Shown here one piece after another: positions 43,371-64,000 of a stretch of DNA of 64,000 bases (the stretch's first letter is position 1; each line of letters begins with the position of its first letter). The notes under the pieces are model-generated. The model saw nothing but the letters and a program-made list of their open reading frames with translations. It made no database searches and was not told the DNA's origin. This DNA is from Rhodanobacter sp. (lineage in GTDB: Bacteria > Pseudomonadota > Gammaproteobacteria > Xanthomonadales > Rhodanobacteraceae), in assembly GCA_040371205.1 (NCBI GenBank), contig AP031382.1:1733562-1797561 (forward strand). Reading direction: 5' to 3'. A program made the position numbers and the translations under genes.

Positions 43371-43723
<353 letters not shown>

Positions 43724-49014: not shown

Positions 49015-49908
49015 TCAGGTCGCCGGCTTGCTCGTTGGCTGTCTTCGAGCGGTCGCGCTTCGGGAGACTGCGGCGCCCTTCTTGGGGTTCCTGGTTTTTC
49101 GAGGTTGGCTTCCCTGCGGAAGCTGCATCTGCTTCATGGTCGTCTCAAGTGCAGCGGCGCGTCCCGCGTGGTGCGCCGCACTCGTTTCCGCTTTTTTCAA
49201 CTCTGTCTGAAGCGCCATCTGATGCGCCTCCAACTGTGTGATTCGCTTGCTTTGGTCGCGATGATCGCGATCCAGACGTTGCTGCAGTGCCTTGAGCTCT
49301 TGCCTCGCATGGTCGACCTGTTTATGGGCACGTTCCTCGATCGTACGAATGTGTTGCTCGGATTCGGTGCGCTCGAACCGCAATGTGCTGAGATCACGTT
49401 GCTGTTCATCCAGTTGCAATTGCAGACGGTCACGCTGCTGCGTCAGGTCGGCGACCTGGGCAGCCAACTGGTCGACCAAAATCTGGCGCTCGGCGAGCTG
49501 GCGCTCCGCCAAGGCTCGCTGTGCTGCGTGTTCGGCGACACTTGCCTGGGATTCGGCAAGGGCGATGTCCCACACCTTGCGTTCCTGGGCCAGTGTCGTT
49601 TGTTCGGCAAACAGTGCGTTCTGCTCAGCCGCCAAGGCTGCCTTCGCGGTGCACTCCCCATGGGCAAGCGCCAAACGCCACGCTTCGGTAAAGGCCTGGG
49701 CCACATCGCCGGGTAGTTCCGGCAGCAGCGCATGTCCCTTCAAGCGTTGCGCCAACTGCCCCCACCATTGCTCCAGCAATTGGCCGACGCGGGCCGGACT
49801 GCCGCGGCCGAGCTCGGTCCGCACGCGTTCGACGGTAGGCCGTTCGCCACGCGCCAGCACCGTATCCGCCGCCTCAAAAACGTCCGTTTCCGGTACCCCG
49901 AGCGCCAT
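49015..49908 (-). CDS. KfrA-like DNA-binding coiled-coil protein
   Basis: A 297-residue protein. The N-terminal KfrA_N fold (VFEAADTVLARGERPTVERVR, as VFEAADTVLARGERPTV and ERVRTELGRGSPARV) is followed by a long coiled coil (about residues 75-250, heptads rich in Q, A, E, L) and a basic tail. KfrA of plasmids binds its own operator and helps partition. Start at 49908 gives the usual head; an upstream frame to 49962 crosses the operator-like repeats. Located 60 bases upstream of the methyltransferase on the same strand, so perhaps co-transcribed with it. Divergent from the integrase. Confidence 0.78.
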   Translation of the reverse strand: MALGVPETDVFEAADTVLARGERPTVERVRTELGRGSPARVGQLLEQWWGQLAQRLKGHALLPELPGDVAQAFTEAWRLALAHGECTAKAALAAEQNALFAEQTTLAQERKVWDIALAESQASVAEHAAQRALAERQLAERQILVDQLAAQVADLTQQRDRLQLQLDEQQRDLSTLRFERTESEQHIRTIEERAHKQVDHARQELKALQQRLDRDHRDQSKRITQLEAHQMALQTELKKAETSAAHHAGRAAALETTMKQMQLPQGSQPRKTRNPKKGAAVSRSATARRQPTSKPAT

Positions 49909-49923
49909 GCCCTGCCCCTCTAC

Positions 49924-49969
49924 TTTTAGGTATGATAAAGATAAGTTATCCGATCTGTTCACCCTAAAA
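49924..49969. promoter_or_regulatory. Operator-like inverted repeats between kfrA and integrase
   Basis: Outer arms TTTTAGG (49924-49930) and CCTAAAA (49963-49969) enclose a perfect palindrome GATAAGTTATC (49940-49950) and the core TTATCCGAT. The same TTATCCGAT core, inverted, occurs upstream of the second kfrA-like gene (63046-63078). May be the KfrA operator or the recombinase core site. Confidence 0.55.
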
Positions 49970-49994
49970 ACGCGCTTCTCATACGGTGGACGTA

Positions 49995-51089
49995 ATGAAT
50001 CATACGCTGATCCAGATAGATGTCACCGCCTCCACACTGGACCTGGCGGCGCTGGATGCGTCGAGCCAGGCCGCCGCCGCGGCGTTCGTCGCCGCCGGCA
50101 CCGCGCCGAATACCGTGCGCAGCTACCGCAGCGCCCTCACCTACTGGGCGGCGTGGCTGCAGGGCCGCTACGGCGCGGCGTTCGGCGCGGCGCCGCTGCC
50201 GCCGGCGGTCGCGGTGCAGTTCGTGCTGGACCACCTGGCGTGCCCGCGCGACGACGGCACCTGGGAACACCTGCTGCCGCCCACGCTGGACACTGCGCTG
50301 GTCGGCGCCGGCATCAAGGGTCATCCGGGCCCCCTGGCCTACAACACGGTCAGCCACCGGTTGGCGGTGCTGGCCAGCTGGCATCGGGCCCACGGCTGGG
50401 ACAGCCCGAACGAAGCGCCGGCCGTGAAGACCTTGCTGCGCCAAGCCCGTAAAGCGCAGGCCCGTCAGGGCGTCAGCGTGCGCAAGAAGACCGCCGTGGT
50501 CGCCGAACCACTCCAGGCGATGCTCGCCACCTGCACCGACGGCCTGCGCGGCGTGCGCGATCGCGCCCTGCTGCTGCTCGCCTGGAGCGGTGGCGGCCGC
50601 CGCCGCTCGGAGGTCGTGGGCTTGCAGGTCACCGACGTGCGGAGGCTCGATGCCGACACCTGGGTGTACGCGCTCGGCGCCACCAAGACGCATACGGATG
50701 GCGTACGCCGCGAAAAGCCGCTGCGGGGTGAGGCCGCCCACGCCCTGGCGGCGTGGCTCGCCGCGGCGCCGGCGACCACCGGTCCCCTCTTCCGCCGCCT
50801 GCACCGCGGCGGCGCCGTCGGGACCACCGCGCTCACCGCCGACCACGTGGCACGGCTGGTCCAACGGCGCGCAAAGCTGGCCGGGCTCGCCGGCGACTGG
50901 GCCGCCCACAGCCTGCGCTCGGGCTTCGTCACCGAAGCCGGACGCCAGGGCGTGCCCCTCGGCGAGGTGATGGCGATGACCGAACACCGCGGCGTCGGCA
51001 CCGTGATGGGGTATTTCCAGGCGGGCAGTCTACTCAACAGTCGCGCGGCGGACCTATTAGAAACGGGAAAAGCTGTGAAACTCAGCTAA
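49995..51089 (+). CDS. Tyrosine site-specific recombinase/integrase
   Basis: A 364-residue recombinase (from ATG 49995; an in-frame GTG at 49986 would add three). SAM-like N-terminal domain (NTVRSYRSALTYWAAWLQGRY, as NTVRSYRSALTYW and AAWLQGRY) is followed by the catalytic domain: Arg in WSGGGRRRSEVVGL, HxxR in HSLRSGFVTEAG, and MTEHRGVGTVMGYFQAG holding the last His/Arg and the nucleophilic tyrosine. GC content is as high as the core genome, unlike its neighbours, so it came separately from the defence and lanthipeptide genes. It may mobilise the KfrA-associated unit. Confidence 0.85.
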   Translation: MNHTLIQIDVTASTLDLAALDASSQAAAAAFVAAGTAPNTVRSYRSALTYWAAWLQGRYGAAFGAAPLPPAVAVQFVLDHLACPRDDGTWEHLLPPTLDTALVGAGIKGHPGPLAYNTVSHRLAVLASWHRAHGWDSPNEAPAVKTLLRQARKAQARQGVSVRKKTAVVAEPLQAMLATCTDGLRGVRDRALLLLAWSGGGRRRSEVVGLQVTDVRRLDADTWVYALGATKTHTDGVRREKPLRGEAAHALAAWLAAAPATTGPLFRRLHRGGAVGTTALTADHVARLVQRRAKLAGLAGDWAAHSLRSGFVTEAGRQGVPLGEVMAMTEHRGVGTVMGYFQAGSLLNSRAADLLETGKAVKLS

Positions 51090-51478: not shown

Positions 51479-53363
51479 CTACTGACCGGGATCCGCTCCA
51501 CCATCCAGGCGGCTGCGTACCAGTGCGTTGAGCTTGCCCAGCCGAACGAACTGCGTCAGCACCGGACGCGGCACGTGGCGCATGAACGGGAAGATGCGCG
51601 GGCATACGTACAAGTCCTCGATCCGCTGCTCGACGGCGGGCCCCGCGGGCCACTTCAATAGCTCGAGCAGTCGCGCAGCATGGGTCTCCAGGAACGCGTG
51701 TCGACGTGCGATCTTCGCTAATTGGCCCGTCGTCGGCGTCTTCCCGAAGACCTCTTCGCGAAGACGTCGCATGTCCTTGATGCAAAACGCTGGCTTGTTG
51801 TACTTGCACTCGACCATAAACCACCGGTTGTCCTCCGGACGGTAGGCCAATACGTCGAAATCGCCGACATCCTCGAAGCCTTCTAGCGGGAACCGCCGGT
51901 GGAAATCAACGCCGTGCTCGAAGTACGTCAGATGCCGGCCAAGCACCTCCACGGTGCGCACTTCCAGATCATCTTCAATATGCTTCTTGATCGAGGCGGC
52001 GACCTCTTCGATCTGTGGGTACCCAAAGTCGGCCGGCGGGTAGCCGTCCGAAAACGTGCCATTCCAGATGCCGAAGGCCCGATGCGCTGCCGCCGCACCC
52101 CACAACAGTCTGTCCTGCCCGATGCGCAGCACCGGACGAATGCCGTAGCGGTGCACGCGCTTGCGGTGCTCCCAGATAGGCACATCACCTTCCTCGAGCT
52201 CGCGAGCGGCCAGCACGCATACCCTGCCCGCGTCCAAGGTCAGAAAGTCCAATGCTGCCTCTACTTCAGCCTGCGGCATGGGTGGCGACATGTGCGCGAC
52301 AAGCGTGGCCAGCACGTCGGCCTTTGAGCCTTCGTACGACCACGCCAGCGGCACCGCCCCTTCCCTGGCACTCACCCACCGACCCAGAACCGCCAACACG
52401 GGCAACAGGGTGGTCAGGGGAAAACCGACACTGTTCACGAAGGCCGTGTTGAGCCGTTGCCGCTCCGCCTCGTCCATCGACGCGACGCGGTCTTCGTCAT
52501 CGTCACGCTCCAGCAGCTCGTTCGCGGCTTCGTGCTGGTAGGCGTGGTCATCGCCGCCTTCATAGAAGACTTCGGGGATGAACTCGCTATCCACGTCGAC
52601 GCCGCCGACTTCCAGTTCGTTGTGCAGGGTGTCGCTCGCCCCATACAGGACCAGCAGCCAATCCACTTGGGCAAGCAATCTTTGCCACTCCTCCACCGAG
52701 GGCACCCTGCCCCCCGATAGGCCACGGCTATACCCGAGCTCCAGCAGGTAGCGCACGTTCCGCGTCGCCCGAATGAACTCCTCGTGCGCCTTGGCCTGCT
52801 CCTCGATGCGATCGAAGTCGACTTCGTGCGTAAGACTCATGCGAAGCCTCGTGCTCTCGCTATCGTACTCGGCCACCAAATGATCGAACTGCTGAACCGC
52901 AAGTCGAACGAGGGCTTGCCGATCAAGCTGGCGGACGTGTTCGTGCACCAACGACCGATAGCGATCTCGAATCTTGTCGATTACCGCCTTGGCCGGCTTG
53001 AGTTCGTAGCGACCGGGTGCGATGCCCTCGGCACGGAACTCCATTGCCAGATCGCGCCGGGCCAGTTTGAAGTGCTCAAGATCAGCCGAAATCGGATCGG
53101 CATGATCAGGCACGTCTACCGTTCGCTCCCGGTGCGAAAGGGTGAAGCGAGGCGTTCGGTCCGCCGTGGCCGCCAACGCCCGCAGCACCTGCTCATCGAG
53201 TGAAATTTCCAACAGTGCACACACGCCGCGGAGCCACTCGCTGGCGCAGAAGGCCTCGAACCGGGCATTGGAGGCATCTTCCAAGTCCACGGCGACCTGA
53301 GACAGGTTGACCTCGACTTCAAGGACCAGCGAATCGGCGTTGCGTTCGCAGATCTTCCACGAG
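51479..53363 (-). pseudogene. PD-(D/E)XK nuclease-type protein, 5' end lost to an IS element
   Basis: About 628 codons remain on the minus strand from the IS left end. Early part: helical, with LEHFKLARRDLAMEFRAEG. Late part: VGDFDVLAYRPEDNRWFMVECKYNKPAF near the C terminus (short pieces GDFDVLAYRPEDNRW and FMVECKYNKPAF), where Asp and Glu-Cys-Lys form a PD-(D/E)XK nuclease core, and a DNA/RNA-processing role in defence is likely. The N terminus is replaced by IS sequence and no continuing frame was found on the other side, so it is probably inactive. Confidence 0.7.
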
Positions 53364-53367
53364 GGTT

Positions 53368-54228
53368 CTACCCCGAAATCACGGACGGTTGTGAAAGGGT
53401 GGAAAACTTCAGATCCTGCTTTGCCTGCCTGCGCCGCATTCTCGGATTGTGGAACCGCTCGATGTATTCGAACACATCGGCTCTTGCTGCATCGAGCGTC
53501 GGATATTTCATGCGGTAGACACGCTCGCGCTTGAGCTGGCCGAAGAAGCCCTCGCAAGCCGCGTTGTCCCCGCAATGGCCGACCGCGCTCATCGAGCACA
53601 CCAACGCATTGGCCACCAGATAGTCCTGGTAGTCGCCGCTGCGGAACTGGCTGCCACGATCCGAATGCAGGATCACCGGCTCGCCTCCCTGGCGCTGCCA
53701 CACGGCCATCTGCACGGCCCGGATCACCATCTGCCGGTCTTGCCGATGATGCATCGACCAACCCACGACCCGGTGGTCGAACAGGTCCAGCACGATGCAT
53801 AGGTACAGCTTGCCTTCGTCGGTCTTGATCTCGGTGATGTCGGTGACCCACTTGGTCTCCGGCTCCTGTGCGGTGAAGTCCCGTTCCAGCCAGTTGCGCA
53901 CGCCCGGTGGGGCCAGTCCCGGTTGAGCCCGCTGGCCGCGCCGCTTCTTGCGTGGCCAGCCCTGCAGGCCATCGGCCGCCATCAGACGCGCCACCCGGTT
54001 CAGGCTGGCCGACTCGCCTTCCGCGGCGAGGTCCTCATGCATCCGTCCCGCCCCCAACACGCCACGGCTGTCCTCGTGCAGTGCACGGATGCGGCCGAGC
54101 AGGCGATCGTTGTCGGCTTGGCGGGCACTGGGCATGCGCTTGCTCCAATCGTAGTAGCCACTGGTCGACACCCGCAGACAGCGGCACATCAGCCGAACCG
54201 GAAACTCGTTGCGGCAACGTTCGATCAC
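53368..54228 (-). CDS. IS3-family transposase OrfB (DDE integrase domain)
   Basis: A 286-residue catalytic subunit of the rve integrase fold. DDE motifs: first Asp in [17 protein letters not shown], second in [16 protein letters not shown], Glu in [20 protein letters not shown]_21 head ([20 protein letters not shown]) binds the ends. It ends inside the left inverted repeat. The start is not a normal ATG context: OrfAB is normally made by a -1 frameshift from orfA. Confidence 0.9.
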
Positions 54229-54236
54229 CTGATACC

Positions 54237-54524
54237 TCAGGATGATCCCTTGGCAAAGAACGTCGCCGCTTCGCGCAAAAAATCCCGCTCCTTCTTCACC
54301 CGGGCCAGCTCGCGCTTGAGCCTCGCCAGCTCCTCATCCCGCGGCGTTCCGCTACCGCCAAACGCGACCGACCCCTGGCTGTTGGACTCCCGTTTCCAGC
54401 GGGTCAACAGGTTCTCCCGGACCCCCAGCTCGCGGGCCACTTGGGCGCAAGTGACACCCGGCTGCCTGGCCTGTTCAACCGCACCGCGCTTGAACTCCGC
54501 ACTGAACTTTCTTCGCTTCGACAT
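54237..54524 (-). CDS. IS3-family transposase OrfA (helix-turn-helix)
   Basis: A 95-residue DNA-binding subunit: [39 protein letters not shown] (helix-turn-helix) and a leucine/lysine coiled coil ([19 protein letters not shown]). Start at 54524; the longer upstream frame crosses the IS end and is not part of the protein. The stop at 54237 is 9 bases before the first in-frame base of the annotated orfB. Confidence 0.9.
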
Positions 54525-54693
54525 GAACACTCCTCTGGGCCTCGAGCGGCCCTTTTGTAAGTGTCCGTGAAATCGGGGGTGAACCCCGACGAGCAACATC
54601 AGGACAGCGCACGCACGAAGTGGGAGGGGCGCCTGCAAGTGAGGGCTCGGCCCCGGACTGCGCAAATCGCGCATGAAGTTCGTGTCGAGCGTC

Positions 54694-55252: not shown

Positions 55253-55345
55253 ACGCTTAGCAAGCCCAGAAGGGTTTGCACGTCGGCTTGGAAGCCGCTA
55301 TACGGCAACAGGCCTCACTCGTAAGTTGAACTAAGGAGAGAATCA

Positions 55346-55477
55346 ATGACAAACGTAATGCATTTGCAGACCCTTGATCTCGATTCGAATGCTCCGGAAG
55401 TGGCTTCCTGCGTTTCGTGGCAGAGCTGTACGTCCAGCGTCAGCAGTAAGACGAAGGGCGAAGGTCAAGGCGGCTAA
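55346..55477 (+). CDS. Class III lanthipeptide precursor (lanA)
   Basis: A 43-residue peptide with the Shine-Dalgarno AAGGAGAG. Leader (residues 1-20) contains LQTLDLDSN, similar to the L-x-L-D-L element recognised by class III synthetases. The core SCVSWQSCTSSVSS fits the labionin rule Ser-X2-Ser-X2-5-Cys at Ser21, Ser24 and Cys28. Further Ser/Thr (29-34) could be dehydrated, and Cys22 is free or could pair. The tail is KTKGEGQGG. It lies directly before the LanKC synthetase gene, so assignment rests on position plus motifs. Confidence 0.8.
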   Translation: MTNVMHLQTLDLDSNAPEVASCVSWQSCTSSVSSKTKGEGQGG

Positions 55478-55483
55478 GCAAAT

Positions 55484-55516
55484 AGAAGGGGTGGGCACAG
55501 CCCACCCCTTCTTTAT
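55484..55516 (+). terminator. Attenuator between lanA and lanKC
   Basis: A perfect 13-bp stem (55484-55496 and 55500-55512, arms AGAAGGGGTGGGC / GCCCACCCCTTCT, loop ACA) followed by TTATTGTT. It lies just after the precursor stop, as usual for lanthipeptide operons, and would keep peptide mRNA above synthetase mRNA. Confidence 0.8.
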
Positions 55517-55583
55517 TGTTGAAATAGGAAGTTGACCACGGTCTCAAAAATTCCTTGACTAGGTGGTAGCGATTGGAGAGATC

Positions 55584-58292
55584 ATGAAAGATCACCCGTA
55601 CATGATGTACACACTTCTGAGCAAGGTATTCTACGAGTCCCTAAGTCAGCGTAAACCATCAGACGAATATCTAAATGTCGTCAGGCCCCTTCTGCCAGCT
55701 GGTTGGCATACCAGTAATCACGGCGTGTGGACCGAGGTCACACCTCCTGATGCCGTGGGTCTAGGGCATGGATGGAAGATCCATCTCTCCGTTATACCTA
55801 TGCATGCGAAAGACATGCTTACCTTCGTTGTTCCTGAACTGGTCAGAGCAAATGTGTCATTTAAATTTTGCGCCGACCTGCAGATGCTTGAGCTTACACT
55901 AAATAAGAATTGGCCTCGCACACAAGTTGGAAAGTTCATCACTATCTATCCATCCTCAGCAGAGAATTTTAAATCTGTAATTGAGGCGTTGCACCCACTC
56001 ACGGATAAGTTCGTTGGACCGCATATCCTCACGGATAATATCTATAAAAACAGCATGGTCCTACACTACCGTTACGGAGCGCATATTGAAGACTACCGGC
56101 TCGACGCATATGGATATCGAATTCCAGGATATCGATTGGGCGATGGATCATGGGTCGACGATATACGTAAGCCTGGCCTATTTAACCCTTTGAATCTCGA
56201 TGTTGACTTGGGCGATAAGATCTCGTCGAGCGGCATTGAGAATTCGCGTTCAAGCGTGCTACTCAACGGTCACTACCGAGTCGAAAAGGCGATCAAGTTC
56301 AGTGGCGAGGGTGGCATGTACTATGGTGTAGACGAGCGAGACGGCCTACAAGTTGTGGTACGGGAGCAACGCCGATTGCTTGGTGCGATCTTAGGGGTTG
56401 ACGGTCTCGAACCAGGCTACACGCTAAAGAAGGAAGCGGCAATCCTTCAGAAGCTGGATGGTTGCGGTTTTACGCCACGTTACGTGGATCATTTTGAAGA
56501 GGAAGGACACTGGTTTCTCGTGCAGGAGCGGCTGAATGGTGCTGATACGCTCTGGGGTTACTCCATGGCGTTTTACTTCAATAGCGAAAACCAAACTCCG
56601 AGCCAAACTTTCGAATCTTTGAGAACGGTCGTGCGTAACATCGCCACGGCCCTTAAGGCTATACATTCGTTTGGCGTAGTACTGCGCGATCTCACGCGGA
56701 CTAATGTGCTTATTACTACTGATAACGAGGTGCGCTTTGTCGATTTTGAGTTCTCCCATGACCTCACAATCGATTCGCACTGGGTCGCCGGATGGACGGC
56801 TGGTTATGCCTCAGCAGATCAACGAGCCGACAGACGACCGTCATTAGCTGATGACTATTATGCATTCGGCGCCTTGATCCTTGACCTTATCACCTATAGC
56901 GCGTCGGGATTCGACTTAAACAGGGCTGGCCTATTTCGGAAGCTCGATATGAACTTGGCTGATTTGGGGTTGCCCGCACACCTGGCTGACATGGTTCGCG
57001 GCCTAACACAGCAGGACCCTGCGGAACGGTGGGACATTGATAGCGCTATAGCACACCTAGACGGCATCGAGCCTCCCGATGACAAAAGGCCGCTTTTCCC
57101 CACGCTGTCGAGAAATCTATCGACGTATGATCGAAAAGCCTATTCACCAATCTTGGCCGAGATTGATCTATTTTTCGACAGTTCGATCACTCTCACTCGA
57201 TCGGACCGCCTATGGCCCGGATCAGCCGAGATATGGGCTACAAACCCAGTAAACCTAATGTATGGTGCAACCGGGTGTGCATATTTTCTTCTTCGTCACC
57301 GTGGATACGTGGAAGATGCAATCCTAGACTGGATTGCTGCCCGGGCCACTATATTGAATTGTCCGCCAGGATTATTCTCCGGCTTGGCCGGCGTAGCGAG
57401 TTTGCTGCTCGACAGTGGGCGTGTCGAGCAGGCCGTCAAAATGCTTGACGGGGCTATGAATGGCATGACCTCCGATTTGCCGCACGGGTTGCTGACCGGC
57501 TTCGCGGGTGTGGGCCTCGCCTACATCCGCTTCTACCTTGCGACTGGAGAATCGCGCCATCTTGAACGTGCGATTGAACTAGCTGAGCGGATCCTCGGCC
57601 AAGCGGAGGTGGACGCCAAAGGCATTCACTGGAAAGTTGGTGGGCGGACACCGCTTGGCTTTGCCACGGGCCAAAGCGGCGTGGCTCTTTTTCTCATATA
57701 TTTGGCTGTCGCTGCGAAGCGTGATGATCTGCTTCGATATGGCACCGAAGCACTAGATTTTGATCTCTCGCACCGGGTGGATCGTGCGGGTCAGATACTC
57801 TGGCAGCAGTTCGCGGAATCCGCATCGAACGAGCCACATACCCCACACGTAATGGCAGGTACGGCTGGCATAGGTGCGGTTGCATTACGGGCCTGGCTTG
57901 CGACTGGCAATGAAGATTACTTACGCGTGGCGCAGGAGTGCGCTCGATCAGTGAGCGAGCGGTTCTCCAACAAGATATGGCAGATGGAAGGACTATCAGG
58001 CATGGGCGAACTACTTATCGACATGGCACAGTTGGCGCCAACTCCTACCGACGATTTCATCAGGAGTGCATGTTACCTCGCCGATGGTATCTTGCCCTAT
58101 GGCATTAACCGGACAGAACAAGGGGAGTTCCAGGGTACCGCCTTCGGTGGTTTCGATCACTTTCGAGTCTGCTCCGACTATGGATATGGGACTGCAGGCA
58201 TCGGTATCTTTCTCGACAGACTCGTCAACGATCGACAGAGGTTGTTCATGCCAGATGAACTATTCAATATCTCAAGCAGGTGTTCTCGATGA
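55584..58292 (+). CDS. Class III lanthionine synthetase LanKC
   Basis: A 902-residue three-domain enzyme. It has a phosphothreonine-lyase-type N terminus (about 1-215), a kinase domain (about 225-500; catalytic VVLRDLTRTNVLI with Asp near 369, and FVDFEFSHD), and a LanC-like cyclase end (about 520-902) of repeated Gly-rich helices (LPHGLLTGFAGVGLAYIR, GFATGQSGVALFL). The zinc ligands of class I, II and IV LanC (Cys and Cys-His) are absent; GFATGQSG stands where GxCHG is expected, so class III, not IV. Start at ATG 55584 follows GGAGAG. It would phosphorylate, eliminate and cyclise LanA. Confidence 0.88.
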   Translation: MKDHPYMMYTLLSKVFYESLSQRKPSDEYLNVVRPLLPAGWHTSNHGVWTEVTPPDAVGLGHGWKIHLSVIPMHAKDMLTFVVPELVRANVSFKFCADLQMLELTLNKNWPRTQVGKFITIYPSSAENFKSVIEALHPLTDKFVGPHILTDNIYKNSMVLHYRYGAHIEDYRLDAYGYRIPGYRLGDGSWVDDIRKPGLFNPLNLDVDLGDKISSSGIENSRSSVLLNGHYRVEKAIKFSGEGGMYYGVDERDGLQVVVREQRRLLGAILGVDGLEPGYTLKKEAAILQKLDGCGFTPRYVDHFEEEGHWFLVQERLNGADTLWGYSMAFYFNSENQTPSQTFESLRTVVRNIATALKAIHSFGVVLRDLTRTNVLITTDNEVRFVDFEFSHDLTIDSHWVAGWTAGYASADQRADRRPSLADDYYAFGALILDLITYSASGFDLNRAGLFRKLDMNLADLGLPAHLADMVRGLTQQDPAERWDIDSAIAHLDGIEPPDDKRPLFPTLSRNLSTYDRKAYSPILAEIDLFFDSSITLTRSDRLWPGSAEIWATNPVNLMYGATGCAYFLLRHRGYVEDAILDWIAARATILNCPPGLFSGLAGVASLLLDSGRVEQAVKMLDGAMNGMTSDLPHGLLTGFAGVGLAYIRFYLATGESRHLERAIELAERILGQAEVDAKGIHWKVGGRTPLGFATGQSGVALFLIYLAVAAKRDDLLRYGTEALDFDLSHRVDRAGQILWQQFAESASNEPHTPHVMAGTAGIGAVALRAWLATGNEDYLRVAQECARSVSERFSNKIWQMEGLSGMGELLIDMAQLAPTPTDDFIRSACYLADGILPYGINRTEQGEFQGTAFGGFDHFRVCSDYGYGTAGIGIFLDRLVNDRQRLFMPDELFNISSRCSR

Positions 58293-58316
58293 TTATGTGC
58301 AAGGGCTCTGCGACCT

Positions 58317-60095
58317 ATGGTTACTGAACACTTCAAGTTGAGCGAAGCGAAAAAGCTCTTCGCGTTAATGAAGGGGCTTCGTTTAAGGATAGCTGCGGGC
58401 GTCCTATTCGTGCTCGCCTCGACTGGCCTCTCGCTTACATTTCCGCTTATCATTGGGAAGGTAGTAGATGCGGCCGTGAATAACGCAGGATTCCTAGCCA
58501 TTAATTCGTTTGCGTTTATTTTGTTCGCCATCTTCATAGCCCGGGCGGCTATTGGATTCGCTGGTGGCTATCTATTGGATACCTCAGGCGAGATCATCAT
58601 TAACGGACTTCGCAAAGGTCTGCTTTCACGGATTATCGCATTAGATTTGCGTTTCTTCCACAGCCAAAGACTTGGTGAACTGGCATCGCGACTCCACTCT
58701 GATACGGCGACTATTCGCAACGCCGTGACGGAAACGATCGTTAGCTCGCTTAACCAATTACTCACTTTCTGCGGCGCACTCATTGTCATGTTAGCGATGA
58801 ATTGGCGATTGACCTTGCTGATTCTCTTTCTTGCACCAGTCTCGGCAATACTATCAGCCCGCTTTGGGCCGCGGATTAGCAGTGCAGCACGGCGTGTCAG
58901 GGATCACTCTGGCGACGCACTCGCGGTTGCTAGCGAAGGCATTTCTGGTATCCATACGGTGAAATTATTCAGCCGGGAACCCGTGCTACACGAAATGTAT
59001 TCTGAATCTATTGATCGTGCACTCACTGCTTCCATCCTTTCTGTGCGACTAAGCTCACTGTTCGGTGGCGCATTGAATTTCTTTTCCTCGATCGTAACAG
59101 TGGGGGTGTTTTGGTACGGCGGCACACAAGTATCAGCAGGACACCTGTCGGCTGGTCAACTAATCGCGTTTCTGTTCTACTCAGAAAACATCACGCAGAG
59201 CATCTCAGTGTTTTCAGTGATCTACGGAAATATTGCAACCGCGCTCGGATCCTCCGCACGCATATTTGAATTGATGGAGCTCTCGCCTACCGTCGTTGAT
59301 CCCTCGGAAAACGAGGCAAGTCTGCGGATGCCCACGAGTAGTTCATGCCAAATAGAGGGAGTTTCGTTCGGCTACGATCCAAATCACTGCATCCTTCATG
59401 ATATCGACTTTCGCGTCGATCCAGGCGAGGTGGTGGGTCTGGTGGGCACGAGTGGCTCCGGAAAGACGACACTGGCAAATCTCATTTGCCGCCTGTTCGA
59501 CCCCGACAGCGGTCGAATTTTGCTGGATGGCATTGACATCAAGAGGTTGCCAATCGGTGTAGTGCGCGAGCATGTTGCAATGGTTTCTCAAGATGTCTTC
59601 CTCTTCAATACGTCGATCCGCGAAAATATTCGGATGGCCCGTGTGGATGCCAGTGATGAGGATGTAGAGAACGCCGCGCGGGATGCTTGCGTGGATGAGT
59701 TCATCGTGGGACTCGATGAAGGCCTCAACACAATTGTCGGCGAACGCGGTGTCAAGCTAAGCGGTGGCCAGCGTCAACGCATTTCGTTGGCACGAGCCTT
59801 TCTACGCAAATCGCGGCTCCTTGTTCTCGATGAGGCGACATCTGCTGTAGATAGCCTTACGGAGCAGCGCATCCAGGACGCCATGATTGAGAAAGCTAGA
59901 AAGAATAGCCTCTCATTAATTGTTATCGCACACAATTTAAATACGATGCGCAAGACGGACCGGCTCGTGGTCATTCATGGCGGGCAAGTAGTAGAGACGG
60001 GGACCTTCAGTACACTCGCTTCGAACAATGGTATGTTCGAGAAGCTACTTACAGCCGGTCAACGTGTAGATGAAGAGTTCATGCTTAACGCGTAA
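58317..60095 (+). CDS. ABC transporter, fused permease-ATPase (lanthipeptide exporter)
   Basis: A 592-residue half-transporter. Six transmembrane helices (about 25-315) precede a nucleotide-binding domain with Walker A GTSGSGKTTLAN near residue 380, signature LSGGQRQRISLARAF and Walker B LLVLDEATSAVD. There is no C39 peptidase domain, so the leader is presumably removed by another protease. It starts 24 bases after lanKC. Export or self-protection against the peptide is the likely role. Confidence 0.88.
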   Translation: MVTEHFKLSEAKKLFALMKGLRLRIAAGVLFVLASTGLSLTFPLIIGKVVDAAVNNAGFLAINSFAFILFAIFIARAAIGFAGGYLLDTSGEIIINGLRKGLLSRIIALDLRFFHSQRLGELASRLHSDTATIRNAVTETIVSSLNQLLTFCGALIVMLAMNWRLTLLILFLAPVSAILSARFGPRISSAARRVRDHSGDALAVASEGISGIHTVKLFSREPVLHEMYSESIDRALTASILSVRLSSLFGGALNFFSSIVTVGVFWYGGTQVSAGHLSAGQLIAFLFYSENITQSISVFSVIYGNIATALGSSARIFELMELSPTVVDPSENEASLRMPTSSSCQIEGVSFGYDPNHCILHDIDFRVDPGEVVGLVGTSGSGKTTLANLICRLFDPDSGRILLDGIDIKRLPIGVVREHVAMVSQDVFLFNTSIRENIRMARVDASDEDVENAARDACVDEFIVGLDEGLNTIVGERGVKLSGGQRQRISLARAFLRKSRLLVLDEATSAVDSLTEQRIQDAMIEKARKNSLSLIVIAHNLNTMRKTDRLVVIHGGQVVETGTFSTLASNNGMFEKLLTAGQRVDEEFMLNA

Positions 60096-60169
60096 TACGC
60101 AGAGTTTCTGTGGCGTCGTTGAATCTCGACATTCGTATCAGCTCTCGCGTAAGTGAGATAAAGACGAAA

Positions 60170-61501
60170 ATGAATATGCTGTTATATTATTTAGATCTTG
60201 CGCTCCGCGCCATATGGCGTAACCGTGCCCTAAGTGCCCTGATGGTACTGGCACTGAGCGTTGGAATTGGTGCATGCATGACGACCATCACCGTATATCA
60301 CCTCTTATCGGGTGATCCGCTACCAGGCCGTAGTAAAACTATATTTTATCCTCAATTGGACGGCGATCCAAAGCATTCTAATGCTAAGGCACCATGGGAT
60401 CTTCTGGACTATCGTACTGCTGTTGACTTAGCCCAAAATGGGCCTGCAACACGAAGTGCCATTGTAGTTTCAAGTTCTGAAAAAATTGATGCCATGACAG
60501 ATGCCGTCCCGCCTTTCATTGGGCAGCTTCTGTCGACCAATTCAGATTTCTTCTCAATGTTTGATGTGCCCTTCGCATTTGGCGGATCATGGTCAAAAGA
60601 CGACGAGATACATCATGCACGAGTTGTCGTTATTTCCAATTCTCTGAACAAACACTTGTTCCATGGTGCAAACAGTGTAGGTCGACGTATCAGCGTAAAT
60701 AACAATTCGTTCGAGATTATCGGAGTACTAGCACCGTGGCGTCCGCGGCCAAAATTTTATGAGGTGGCAGGCGGCGCAATCATGCGCGACTCTGCTTCAA
60801 CCTTTTACGGCAGGGTCGAAGATGTCGTCATGCCATTTGCAACGAGCATCGAACTTAATCGCGATGATTTTAATGCTTGGTACTGCTGGCGTGAGCCGAC
60901 GGCAGGCGTGGACCTGACTCACGCGTCATCGTGCTTGTGGGTGCAGTTATGGGTTCAATTAGGTAATTCAGAGGCCGTAGCAAACTATAAAAGATTTTTG
61001 GAAGGCTATGCTGCACAACAACACGACCTTGGCCGATTCGACATCAAACCAAAAGTACGCCTGACATCGCTTCTTGAATGGCTTTCCTACAACGGCGTTG
61101 TGCCAGACGCAGTAAAGTTGCAGGTGGCTATGGCTTTTGCATTCCTTCTCGTATGTCTTTGCAATACCGTTGGGCTGCTATTTGCGAAGTTCTCTGGTAG
61201 AAGTGTCGAGTTTGGCTTGCGGCGTGCTCTTGGCGCAACGCAAGCCGGCTTGTTTTGGCAGTGTCTCGTCGAGGCTGCAGTCATCGGCCTCTTAGGTGGC
61301 ATCGGCGGACTTATCGTGACGCTATGTGGCTTGATGGTGATTAGAAGGCAGCCGTTTAGCTACGCCGACCTTGCTCATCTTGATCTTTCGATGTTTATGT
61401 CAATTTTTATTCTATCGATTTTCTGCGGCATGCTCGTTGCCATCGTGCCCGCACTGCGTTCGGCAAAGACAGCGCCAGCGCTTCAGATTCGGAGTGAATG
61501 A
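60170..61501 (+). CDS. MacB-like ABC permease (first copy)
   Basis: A 443-residue membrane protein from the ATG at 60170. An N-terminal helix (NRALSALMVLALSVGIGACM) is followed by a large periplasmic MacB_PCD-type domain, then three C-terminal FtsX helices (MAFAFLLVCLCNTVGLLF; ECLVEAAVIGLLGGIGGL-like; FILSIFCGMLVAIVPALR). FGLRRALGATQAGLFWQCL is the MacB coupling motif. No ATPase gene is adjacent. Part of the AT-rich lanthipeptide cluster; stop overlaps the next gene (ATGA). Confidence 0.8.
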   Translation: MNMLLYYLDLALRAIWRNRALSALMVLALSVGIGACMTTITVYHLLSGDPLPGRSKTIFYPQLDGDPKHSNAKAPWDLLDYRTAVDLAQNGPATRSAIVVSSSEKIDAMTDAVPPFIGQLLSTNSDFFSMFDVPFAFGGSWSKDDEIHHARVVVISNSLNKHLFHGANSVGRRISVNNNSFEIIGVLAPWRPRPKFYEVAGGAIMRDSASTFYGRVEDVVMPFATSIELNRDDFNAWYCWREPTAGVDLTHASSCLWVQLWVQLGNSEAVANYKRFLEGYAAQQHDLGRFDIKPKVRLTSLLEWLSYNGVVPDAVKLQVAMAFAFLLVCLCNTVGLLFAKFSGRSVEFGLRRALGATQAGLFWQCLVEAAVIGLLGGIGGLIVTLCGLMVIRRQPFSYADLAHLDLSMFMSIFILSIFCGMLVAIVPALRSAKTAPALQIRSE

Positions 61502-62721
61502 AATTCATGCATATGTCACCCATTTTTTCGGCTCTTCGAAGGCACAAGATACCTGTAGTGCTAATCGCTGCGCAGATTGGACTCACACTAGCGGTATTTT
61601 GTAACGCGACATATCTGCTAAGCGATGCCGTAGCAACAGTGTCTATCCATAGTGGTGTGGACGACGGTAAACTCGGTCTTGTTAAAATCATTGCGTGTGA
61701 TGCATGCCAAGTAAATGATATCAATGTGCGCGCGCTGAACTTTCTTAGGCAAATCGACGGCATATCTGCCGTTGCCGTGGTTAACACCGTCCCATTTTCT
61801 TCACGTCAAGCTGACTTTGGCATACGCCTCGATCAATCATCCACTCACGAAACTGCCTCCGCACATTTTTACGCAGTGGGTCCGGATGCGCCAAAAGTAC
61901 TCGGCTTAGAGCTGACTACGGGGCGTCAGTTCACAGCCGACGATTTCCAGCCGGCCACGGGGGCATTACCTAACAACGCGAATGTATGGGTGACGCAAGC
62001 ACTTGCTTCCACGTTGTGGCCTGGACAGACCGCCTTGGGAAAGGACTTTTGGGTTAACAAATGGCATTTCACAGTTATTGGGACGTTGCGCTATCTCGTG
62101 CGCCCTGAGTTCGAACTACAGCCAAGATTTAAGGCTGATTGGTCAGTCGTCGTGCCTATGCAGCCAGGGGGGAGCTTATATGGTACTTATGTATTTCGCG
62201 CCGCGCCTAAAAAACTTCCGACAATTATCAACATGGCGCGTAACAACCTAAGCCGCATAATTCCCGGTATAATTGTCGACGACGACGAAACACGGACGAT
62301 ATCAACGCTACGAACTGAGTACTTTAAAGGGGACATGTCAATGATCTCCATTCTCGCCGCCATTGTTGGTGCCACGCTTTTAACCACAGTGCTGGGAATC
62401 GTCGGTCTGACGAGCTTTTGGGTGTCGCGGCGGCGCAGACAAATTGGAGTAAGGCGTGCCCTTGGTGCAACTCGCTTCGAGATATTGAAATACTTCTTGA
62501 TCGAAAATGCATTCATCGTAAGCCTTGGCAGCTTAGTTGGTGTGGCAAGCGCCTATGCACTGAACTTAGGGCTCATGCAGATATATGAACTTCCGCGACT
62601 ACCGTTCCTCTACATACCGCTGGGCGTTCTGTTGATGCTATTCGTTGGGCAGACTGCTGCACTTGGTCCTGCGATTCGAGCTTCCTCTATTGCGCCAGCG
62701 GAGGCAATACGGGTCATATAA
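61498..62721 (+). CDS. MacB-like ABC permease (second copy)
   Basis: A 407-residue membrane protein of the same plan as its neighbour but divergent: N-terminal helix (VVLIAAQIGLTLAVFCNATY), periplasmic domain, and FtsX helices with QIGVRRALGATRFEILKYFLIE as the coupling motif. Two unequal permeases could form a heterodimer and need an ATPase from elsewhere in the genome. Together with the ABC exporter they may give export or immunity. Confidence 0.8.
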   Translation: MKFMHMSPIFSALRRHKIPVVLIAAQIGLTLAVFCNATYLLSDAVATVSIHSGVDDGKLGLVKIIACDACQVNDINVRALNFLRQIDGISAVAVVNTVPFSSRQADFGIRLDQSSTHETASAHFYAVGPDAPKVLGLELTTGRQFTADDFQPATGALPNNANVWVTQALASTLWPGQTALGKDFWVNKWHFTVIGTLRYLVRPEFELQPRFKADWSVVVPMQPGGSLYGTYVFRAAPKKLPTIINMARNNLSRIIPGIIVDDDETRTISTLRTEYFKGDMSMISILAAIVGATLLTTVLGIVGLTSFWVSRRRRQIGVRRALGATRFEILKYFLIENAFIVSLGSLVGVASAYALNLGLMQIYELPRLPFLYIPLGVLLMLFVGQTAALGPAIRASSIAPAEAIRVI

Positions 62722-63045: not shown

Positions 63046-63078
63046 TAACATCGGATAAGTTCCCATTATCCGGTGTTA
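63046..63078. repeat. Inverted repeat, possible recombinase core site
   Basis: Arms TAACATCGGATAA and TTATCCGGTGTTA (12 of 13 positions match) with a 7-base loop. The CGGATAA core recurs, in the same orientation relative to kfrA, upstream of the other kfrA-like gene (49940-49954 as TTATCCG). Confidence 0.5.
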
Positions 63079-63124
63079 GATTTCTCGCCTAGGTCGCCGC
63101 TTCGCTCACTTGAAATATTACGTG

Positions 63125-63141
63125 ATTACATGGTATGTAAT
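63125..63141. promoter_or_regulatory. Probable KfrA operator
   Basis: Perfect inverted repeat ATTACAT-GGT-ATGTAAT, 30 bases ahead of the second kfrA-like start. KfrA proteins autoregulate through palindromes at their own promoters, which is the basis of the call. Confidence 0.5.
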
Positions 63142-63170
63142 GTGTTACGAAATATCAAGGAGGCGTCGTG

Positions 63171-64000
63171 ATGGCCCGTGGCGGCGTGTACAAGACCGAG
63201 ATCGAGAAGGCCCGTAACGCCTTGCTGGCCGAGGGAAAACACCCCTCGGTCGACGCGGTGCGGGTGGCGTTGGGCAACACCGGCTCGAAAACAACCATCC
63301 ATCGCTACCTCAAGGAGCTGGAGGCCGAGGACACCGCCGGTGTGGGCGGCAAATTCCCGATCAGCGACGCCTTGACCGATCTGGTCAGCCGTTTGGCGGG
63401 GCGGCTCCAAGAGGAGGCGGACGCCAAGATCGCTGAGGCCGCCGCCCGTTTCGAGGCCCCGCGGAAAGAGCTCACCGCCCAGTTGGAGCAGGCACGGCAC
63501 GAGGCGGCATCCATCCGTGCCGACCAGGAACGCACGGCGACGGCGCTGCGCGAGGAACAGGCGCAACACGAGAGCACGCGCCAGGCGCGGCTCGATGCGA
63601 CCCTTCAAGTGCGGCAACTGGATGAGCGCGTCACGGGCTTGATCGCCCGCGTGGCCGAGCACGAAGCGCACGCGCAGTCGCTAGAAGAGAAACACGCGCA
63701 TGCCCGCGAGGCACTGGAGCACTACCGAACGTCCGTGAAGGAGCAGCGGGAGCAGGAACAACGCCGGCATGAACACCAGATCCAAGAACTACAGGTAGCC
63801 CTGCGTCAGGCCAACGAAGCCCTCACGGGCAAGAATCACGAACTCTTGCAGCTCAATCGCGACAACGGGCGCCTGACGGAACACAACGCGCGCCTGGACA
63901 AGGAAGTGCAGCAGGCACGCAACGCTGTGCGCGCAGCGCAAGACGAGGTAGCCACGCTTAAGCCTGTGGTGGCGGAACTGACCAGCTTGCGCACGACGTG
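63171..64000 (+). CDS. KfrA-like DNA-binding coiled-coil protein (3' end beyond the window)
   Basis: At least 276 codons, open to the last base. The head ARGGVYKTEIEKARNALLAEG, HPSVDAVRVALGNTGSKTTIHR is KfrA_N-like (first piece 21 residues here split as ARGGVYKTEIEK and ARNALLAEG). A long coiled coil rich in A, E, Q and R follows (for example LEQARHEAASIRADQER). ATG at 63171 has AAGGAGG 7 bases ahead. High GC, unlike the cluster before it. Resembles, but is not identical to, the KfrA-like protein at 49015. Confidence 0.82.
   Translation, partial: MARGGVYKTEIEKARNALLAEGKHPSVDAVRVALGNTGSKTTIHRYLKELEAEDTAGVGGKFPISDALTDLVSRLAGRLQEEADAKIAEAAARFEAPRKELTAQLEQARHEAASIRADQERTATALREEQAQHESTRQARLDATLQVRQLDERVTGLIARVAEHEAHAQSLEEKHAHAREALEHYRTSVKEQREQEQRRHEHQIQELQVALRQANEALTGKNHELLQLNRDNGRLTEHNARLDKEVQQARNAVRAAQDEVATLKPVVAELTSLRTT

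Follow-up and report, generated by a model that had tools for sequence, protein, structure and literature searches.

A stretch of 64,000 nucleotides of Rhodanobacter sp. (contig AP031382.1, positions 1,733,562 to 1,797,561; hereafter the window) very probably carries a complete class III-type lanthipeptide cluster, class III in its anatomy and built around a LanKC synthetase from an off-type branch of the family. An earlier reading made from the letters alone (the sequence-only reading) had proposed a class III cluster here, and the proposal is borne out by the domains of the synthetase, its lyase residues and most of its kinase residues, its zinc-less cyclase, the LxLQ-type leader of the precursor peptide LanA, and the neighboring genes. 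The new part is the off-type sub-branch itself, with an arginine at the kinase β3 position and cysteine-first precursor cores; these features, together with profile scores between class III and class IV, had escaped the sequence-only reading. The taxon and the zinc-less cyclase are already known.

Genes of the cluster and domains of the synthetase

The Rhodanobacter genome is a single contig of 3.48 Mb. In the window lanA, lanKC, an ATP-binding cassette (ABC) exporter gene and two permease genes form a single plus-strand unit, all of them lying where the sequence-only reading had placed them. The lanA gene (55346..55477) encodes a 43-residue precursor and was recognized from its open reading frame, a ribosome-binding site (AAGGAGA at 55333-55339), and family comparison. 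It is separated from lanKC by a terminator- or attenuator-like 13-bp hairpin on the same strand (55484..55512), detected by stem search and fold statistics. The lanKC gene (55584..58292) was assigned from Pfam and NCBIfam matches and conserved residues and encodes 902 residues from the ATG at 55584. The longest reading frame begins at a GTG (55563), but the ATG is the likelier start because GGAGA (55575-55579) lies just ahead of it and two relatives (L004 and L005) align from there. Residue numbers for the window synthetase (R267, M764, M808, and E809) are nevertheless counted from the GTG.

The exporter gene (58317..60095) encodes transmembrane and ATPase domains (ABC_membrane, E = 2.6e-56; ABC_tran, E = 9.7e-35) without a peptidase domain. 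The permease genes correspond to the first and second halves of a split ADOP/MacB-type permease: permease A (60110..61501; MacB_PCD, E = 3.9e-17; FtsX, E = 1.8e-12) and permease B (61498..62721; FtsX, E = 3.9e-14). The likelier start of permease A is 60170 or 60176, inside the longest frame of 60110-61501, the end of which overlaps permease B by 4 nucleotides. Successive gaps from LanKC through the exporter and permease A to permease B are 24, 14, and -4 bases. The G+C content is 0.47-0.55 across 55-63 kb (∼51% for the cluster) as against ∼0.67 for most of the first 43 kb of the window, in agreement with the earlier remark that the cluster is AT-richer than its genome.

LanKC combines RamC_N (E = 3.4e-45), Pkinase (E = 2.4e-14), and LANC_like (E = 6.3e-19) domains in one protein, as class III synthetases do, and matches the NCBIfam LanKC profile with an E value of 3.5e-155. 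Active site residues were compared in an alignment of 41 synthetases, comprising 29 relatives (L004-L032, of which L030 and L031 are partial), L045, L046, and L050, L051 and L052, six from named plasmids, and the window protein. Eight lyase residues (K72, H74, K101, K115, K124, D158, R170, and R202) were mapped from ThurKC of Bacillus thuringiensis (8sap/8sao/8sam), the closest relative by sequence among solved structures (E = 2.7e-50). All eight are present in the window. Seven are identical in all 41 rows, and K115 is found in 40, the row of one LanL protein (L057) having alanine instead. The kinase residues E291, D376, N381, D394, and E396 are likewise present in 41/41. At the zinc-ligand columns, which were defined from three LanL-type rows (two with a lanL annotation and one from an unannotated S. 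clavuligerus locus), the window has M764, M808, and E809, so the cyclase does lack its zinc ligands, as had been claimed. This lack was considered as a novelty and rejected, since a zinc-less cyclase is a defining mark of class III synthetases in the part of the ThurKC paper available (PMC10604976).

The LanKC clade and its precursor peptides

Together with four relatives that are 40-44% identical to it, the window LanKC makes up one clade, whose members come from five genera (loci and precursors: the window, L033, L034, L035, and L059). In a fast maximum-likelihood phylogeny of 44 rows, for which the three LanL-type rows were chosen as the root, the five are joined with a Shimodaira-Hasegawa-like approximate likelihood ratio (SH-aLRT) support of 100 and branch close to the base of the class III part. 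The surrounding forks are open, long branches meet there, and the tree carries no bootstrap, so the exact place of the clade is unsure.

A clade lying in this position could be a class IV (LanL) system, and its profile scores come close to saying so. Eight relatives were scored against both profiles. The LanKC/LanL scores of the clade are 519/487 bits for the window (where the LanL cut-off is 650) and 576/563, 576/571, 549/547, and 538/504 for the others, with differences of 2 to 34 bits, whereas four other Xanthomonadales synthetases gave 734/549, 655/454, 728/563, and 638/462, with differences of 164 to 201. Residues particular to the clade were collected by a filter (present in 5/5 clade rows and at most 2/36 others, with at least 27/36 agreeing on another residue), which returned H69, C103, W331, R375, T378, Y415, H762, W806, H866, and C870; R375 also occurs in one LanL row (L057) and H762 in two of the three (L057 and L062). 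Nevertheless, the window protein has Met, Met-Glu where LanL has its Cys, Cys-His set, and the zinc ligands are missing from all five clade members, as is expected of the zinc-less cyclase of class III. The class III score exceeds the class IV score in all five, and on the tree the clade falls outside the three LanL-type rows, although the root was placed there by choice. A class IV system is thus highly improbable.

Several observations weigh against a complete class III cluster. The window LanKC scores 519 bits against NCBIfam NF038151, below the curated cut-off of 575, which is a naming threshold rather than a biochemical feature. A fold computed from the single sequence had a mean predicted local distance difference test score of 40 and was not used. 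There is no protease gene within the plus-strand unit, so an unlinked protease would have to cut the leader. Finally, the kinase site is not complete: Arg267 stands in place of the β3 lysine. The same arginine is found in all five clade rows (the window, L004, L005, L006, and L051), and lysine in the other 36/36.

A change from lysine to arginine at β3 is a classical kinase-dead substitution, and the kinase of the clade may accordingly be weakened or dead. The clade enzymes would then be lyases and cyclases acting on a peptide that is left unmodified or is phosphorylated by another kinase. In keeping with this, a β3 Lys-to-Ala change harms ThurKC, which gave degraded peptide, as reported in the available part of PMC10604976. 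We consider an impaired kinase unlikely, however, because the other kinase residues and all lyase residues are intact in 5/5 clade members, the cores of the clade remain serine-rich, and the gene has been kept open in five genera. Speculatively, a clade-wide lysine just ahead of the glycine-rich loop (Lys245; 5/5 clade rows, 1/36 others) might substitute for the missing one. The sequence-only reading had named loss of kinase or lyase residues as the result that would speak against it. Checked by alignment, the lyase has lost none and the kinase is affected at one position, R267, a change common to the whole clade.

The class III reading is further supported by the precursors. The leader of window LanA is MTNVMHLQTL, which contains an LxLQ-type motif (VMHLQTL) of class III leaders, and its core region reads C22-x-S24-x2-S27-C28-x-S30-S31-x-S33-S34. 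The match to NCBIfam lanthi_III_c is weak (E = 0.013, under cut-off), so the precursor call rests on position and family comparison. For the latter, 20 loci were used, namely the window, G460, and the neighborhoods of 18 of 33 LanKC matches picked for spread; one further locus, L061 of G438, stands outside the counts. A short reading frame with an LxLQ-type leader lies close to the LanKC start in 20/20 loci. The only other occurrences of the pattern in these loci, two in 548 kb-strand, were further lanA copies in L039. In L037, L043, and L049 lanA overlaps the longest LanKC frame, which implies that the true LanKC start is further in, and the lanA of L035 has no ATG start. Some clusters hold multiple lanA copies with much the same leader (four in L040, three each in L046 and L039, and two in L045).

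Core motifs were counted in one precursor per locus, the one nearest LanKC, the further copies in L039, L040, L045, and L046 being left uncounted. The labionin/lanthionine motif Sx2Sx2-5C in its strict form is present in 15/15 precursors outside the clade but in only 1/5 within it, that of the window (SCVSWQSC), where it gives a core of class III type. The first serine of this motif, Ser21, is replaced by Glu, Ala, Ala, and Asn in the other four, and the labionin motif was therefore rejected as the shared chemistry of the clade. If threonine is allowed, a distal match appears in L035 and L059 as well, making 3/5. What the clade precursors share is CxSx2S[CS]xS[ST], in which a cysteine stands before the conserved serine run (5/5 clade precursors, 0/15 others). 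This motif was derived from the clade itself, so the 5/5 is by construction; its absence from the 15 others and the loss of the strict motif in 4/5 are not.

The conserved Cys-x-Ser-x2-Ser is approximately the mirror image of Ser-x2-Ser-x2-5-Cys, so rings would run from N-terminal cysteine to C-terminal dehydroalanines. We suggest, tentatively and with more doubt than confidence, that the clade is a distinct lineage of lanthipeptide synthetases between class III and class IV that handles Cys-first cores, closing thioether or labionin-like rings in this direction and relying on a kinase that tolerates Arg at β3. A conventional ring is also conceivable for the window, L033, and L034, where a second cysteine (C28) lies after S24 and S27.

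The hairpin after lanA consists of the 13-bp stem and a loop of 3 nucleotides followed by TTATTGTT. Its fold has a z score of -3.73, and 0/200 shuffles were as good. Perfect stems of 10 bp or more, with 6 or more G-C pairs, follow the nearest lanA within 140 nucleotides in 18/20 loci (the exceptions being L039 and L040) and occur in 81/2000 random windows from the same loci; because these windows consist largely of coding sequence, they are not a matched control. Terminator-like sites across the whole region are not in excess (9 as against 8.4 in shuffles), and the case for the hairpin therefore rests on this stem and its recurrence.

A LanKC match at an E value of 1e-70 or better was found in 32/398 genomes of the order, our own included. 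The matches number 33, since one genome (G234) has two clusters of different lineage, one from the off-type clade (L035) and one of the common type (L050). In two genomes, G189 (L030/L047) and G288 (L031/L048), LanKC is split over two frames with the cut in the cyclase domain, which is either a real split or an assembly error. At an E value of 1e-40 or better a match was present in 25/233 genomes of the family, own included, and in 0/14 other genomes of the genus, three of which are only 85-87% complete. Samples of the class (369 genomes) and phylum (398) gave no match at 1e-40 besides our own genome; the genomes listed include just 4 and 9 others of the order, respectively, so these samples inform on what lies outside the order. 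A scan of genome contigs returned one locus, on a 3.1-kb contig of a metagenome-assembled genome, with the kinase part only. On two Deinococcus plasmids (L053 and L054) a class III cluster adjoins a large LuxR-type regulator; one cluster has two precursor genes and the other four or five.

Transport genes and genomic setting

A relative of the ABC exporter, 43-45% identical, adjoins LanKC in L033 and L034, and an exporter gene also stands beside LanKC in L059; no exporter match was found in the fourth clade locus, L035. On the ADOP model (803 positions) permease A covers positions 6-400 and permease B 411-801, both under cut-off. A permease pair lies near LanKC in 6/18 fetched loci, L044 among them, and in L033, L034, and L045 it is adjoined by an ABC ATPase gene. 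Window permease A is 48-53% identical to those of L044-L047 and 39-40% identical to those of the clade mates L033 and L034, whereas window LanKC is 28-30% identical to the former and 43-44% to the latter. Since the two identities run opposite ways, the cluster looks assembled from modules. Permeases of the window type are common in the order (84/151 genomes at E 1e-60 or better), so their nearness to LanKC may be partly background.

Elsewhere on the same chromosome, outside the window (C1:1068814-1092361), nine A-type permease genes stand in tandem, most of them with a B-type half following. The array is preceded by genes for an HlyD-type adaptor and an ABC ATPase and by a TolC-like frame, the last recognized by eye, and is followed by a sigma-54-type response regulator and a sensor kinase. 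The ATPase frame is frameshifted as assembled which, unless it is a sequencing error, counts against the window pair borrowing these parts.

An insertion sequence (IS) lies upstream of the cluster on the minus strand (53363..54587). It encodes transposase domains, has six further chromosomal copies at 99-100% identity, and is presumably of the IS3 type; it overlaps the longest frame of a large uncharacterized open reading frame (51479-53851, minus strand). Farther left are genes for KfrA and a tyrosine integrase (49015-51089), an AbiJ-like protein, a weakly ORC/CDC6-like ATPase, and an N6-methyltransferase, and then a transfer-messenger RNA (tmRNA; 43371-43722). To the right of the cluster a KfrA-like gene (63168..63998, plus strand; KfrA_N, E = 1.4e-26) runs off the window, and 63046-64000 is 88% identical in G483, a genome of the same genus without a LanKC match. 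The drop in G+C content and this setting of IS, integrase, and KfrA genes suggest acquired DNA, and the cluster looks like part of it. The interval 43371-63998, from the tmRNA through the second KfrA gene and including the lanthipeptide cluster, is a possible genomic island. We do not claim insertion at the tmRNA, because neither the remainder of the window nor L060, to its right, contains a 15-25 bp copy of the tmRNA 3′ end.

A cluster that arrived with such an island might now be silent or decaying. The IS copy, the integrase and KfrA genes around it, the absence of LanKC from 14/14 other genomes of the genus, and the lack of a cognate ATPase gene beside the permeases would all fit a remnant. 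On the other hand, every reading frame is open, the spacing is tight, lanA and lanKC have ribosome-binding sites, and the motifs are conserved, so that we regard a remnant as decidedly unlikely.

Proposed working and comparison with known systems

For the class III cluster, we propose the following chemistry, direction of transport, and use of its parts, any bioactivity of the product being equally putative. The hairpin would keep the lanA transcript in excess of the downstream genes. LanKC would grip the LxLQ leader, its kinase domain would phosphorylate core serines, and its HopA1/SpvC-like lyase domain would remove the phosphate to leave dehydroalanines. The zinc-less cyclase could then join Cys22 and/or Cys28 to dehydroalanines, as a lanthionine or a labionin-like bridge. 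The ABC exporter probably takes the peptide across the inner membrane, and the permease pair, together with an ATPase acting in trans, an adaptor, and an outer-membrane channel, may move it onward or protect the producer. The ATPase, adaptor, and channel might be borrowed from the nine-permease array.

In five genomes, each from a different genus, the sub-branch pairs an altered kinase site and altered cyclase residues with an altered arrangement of Cys and Ser in the substrate. It therefore offers a natural experiment on how LanKC sets the direction of its rings and on whether Arg at β3 is compatible with a working protein kinase. Among the matches listed in the open literature there was nothing on MacB-type permeases with LanKC, on a change of the LanKC kinase lysine or a pseudokinase LanKC, or on reversed rings in class III.

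The sequence-only reading had described class III systems as mostly actinobacterial. This holds in part: LanKC and LanL come mostly from Actinobacteria and Firmicutes according to the excerpt available (PMC7268733), and class III products have been obtained by refactoring from Myxococcus and Bacillus (PMC9576775, in part). The cluster is no first for its taxon, a claim that we rejected. For Lysobacter, the accessible text of a 2024 preprint (PMC11451712) gives eight class III clusters, with three precursors; that of another paper reports class III and IV by antiSMASH in Luteibacter mycovicinus (PMC11165876), and the 32/398 genomes with LanKC belong to the same order. These Lysobacter and Luteibacter clusters, compared here by description only, are of the same order and class and come from genome mining. 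In the literature cited, genome mining is the sole evidence for class III in Xanthomonadales, so any characterized product would be useful.

Other Xanthomonadales LanKC loci (e.g. L036, L038, and L044) resemble the window in the LxLQ leader, the hairpin, and LanKC itself. They differ in being only 28-33% identical, in having the β3 lysine and Sx2Sx2-5C cores (15/15), and in clear class III scores (4/4 scored). ThurKC shares with the window enzyme the domain order, the lyase residues, a DFE motif, and the zinc-less cyclase. The differences are in the kinase, where the window has Arg for Lys at β3 and LRD in the catalytic loop where ThurKC has GD, and in the cyclase, where the second and third zinc positions are F770-D771 in ThurKC (as given in the part of PMC10604976 available) and M808-E809, placed via the LanL rows, in the window. 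The permeases have the MacB_PCD and FtsX domains of ADOP/MacB-type permeases, the two reading frames corresponding to the two ADOP halves, but the pair is split into two genes, stands beside LanKC without an ATPase, and falls below the ADOP cut-off. A further parallel by description is NorKC/LanKC-Hbt, the synthetase of noursin (PMC10206099, in the portion available). Its crosslinks join histidine to butyrine, whereas the window core contains no His; the likeness lies in being a LanKC subgroup distinguished by the cyclase domain, with altered ring chemistry.

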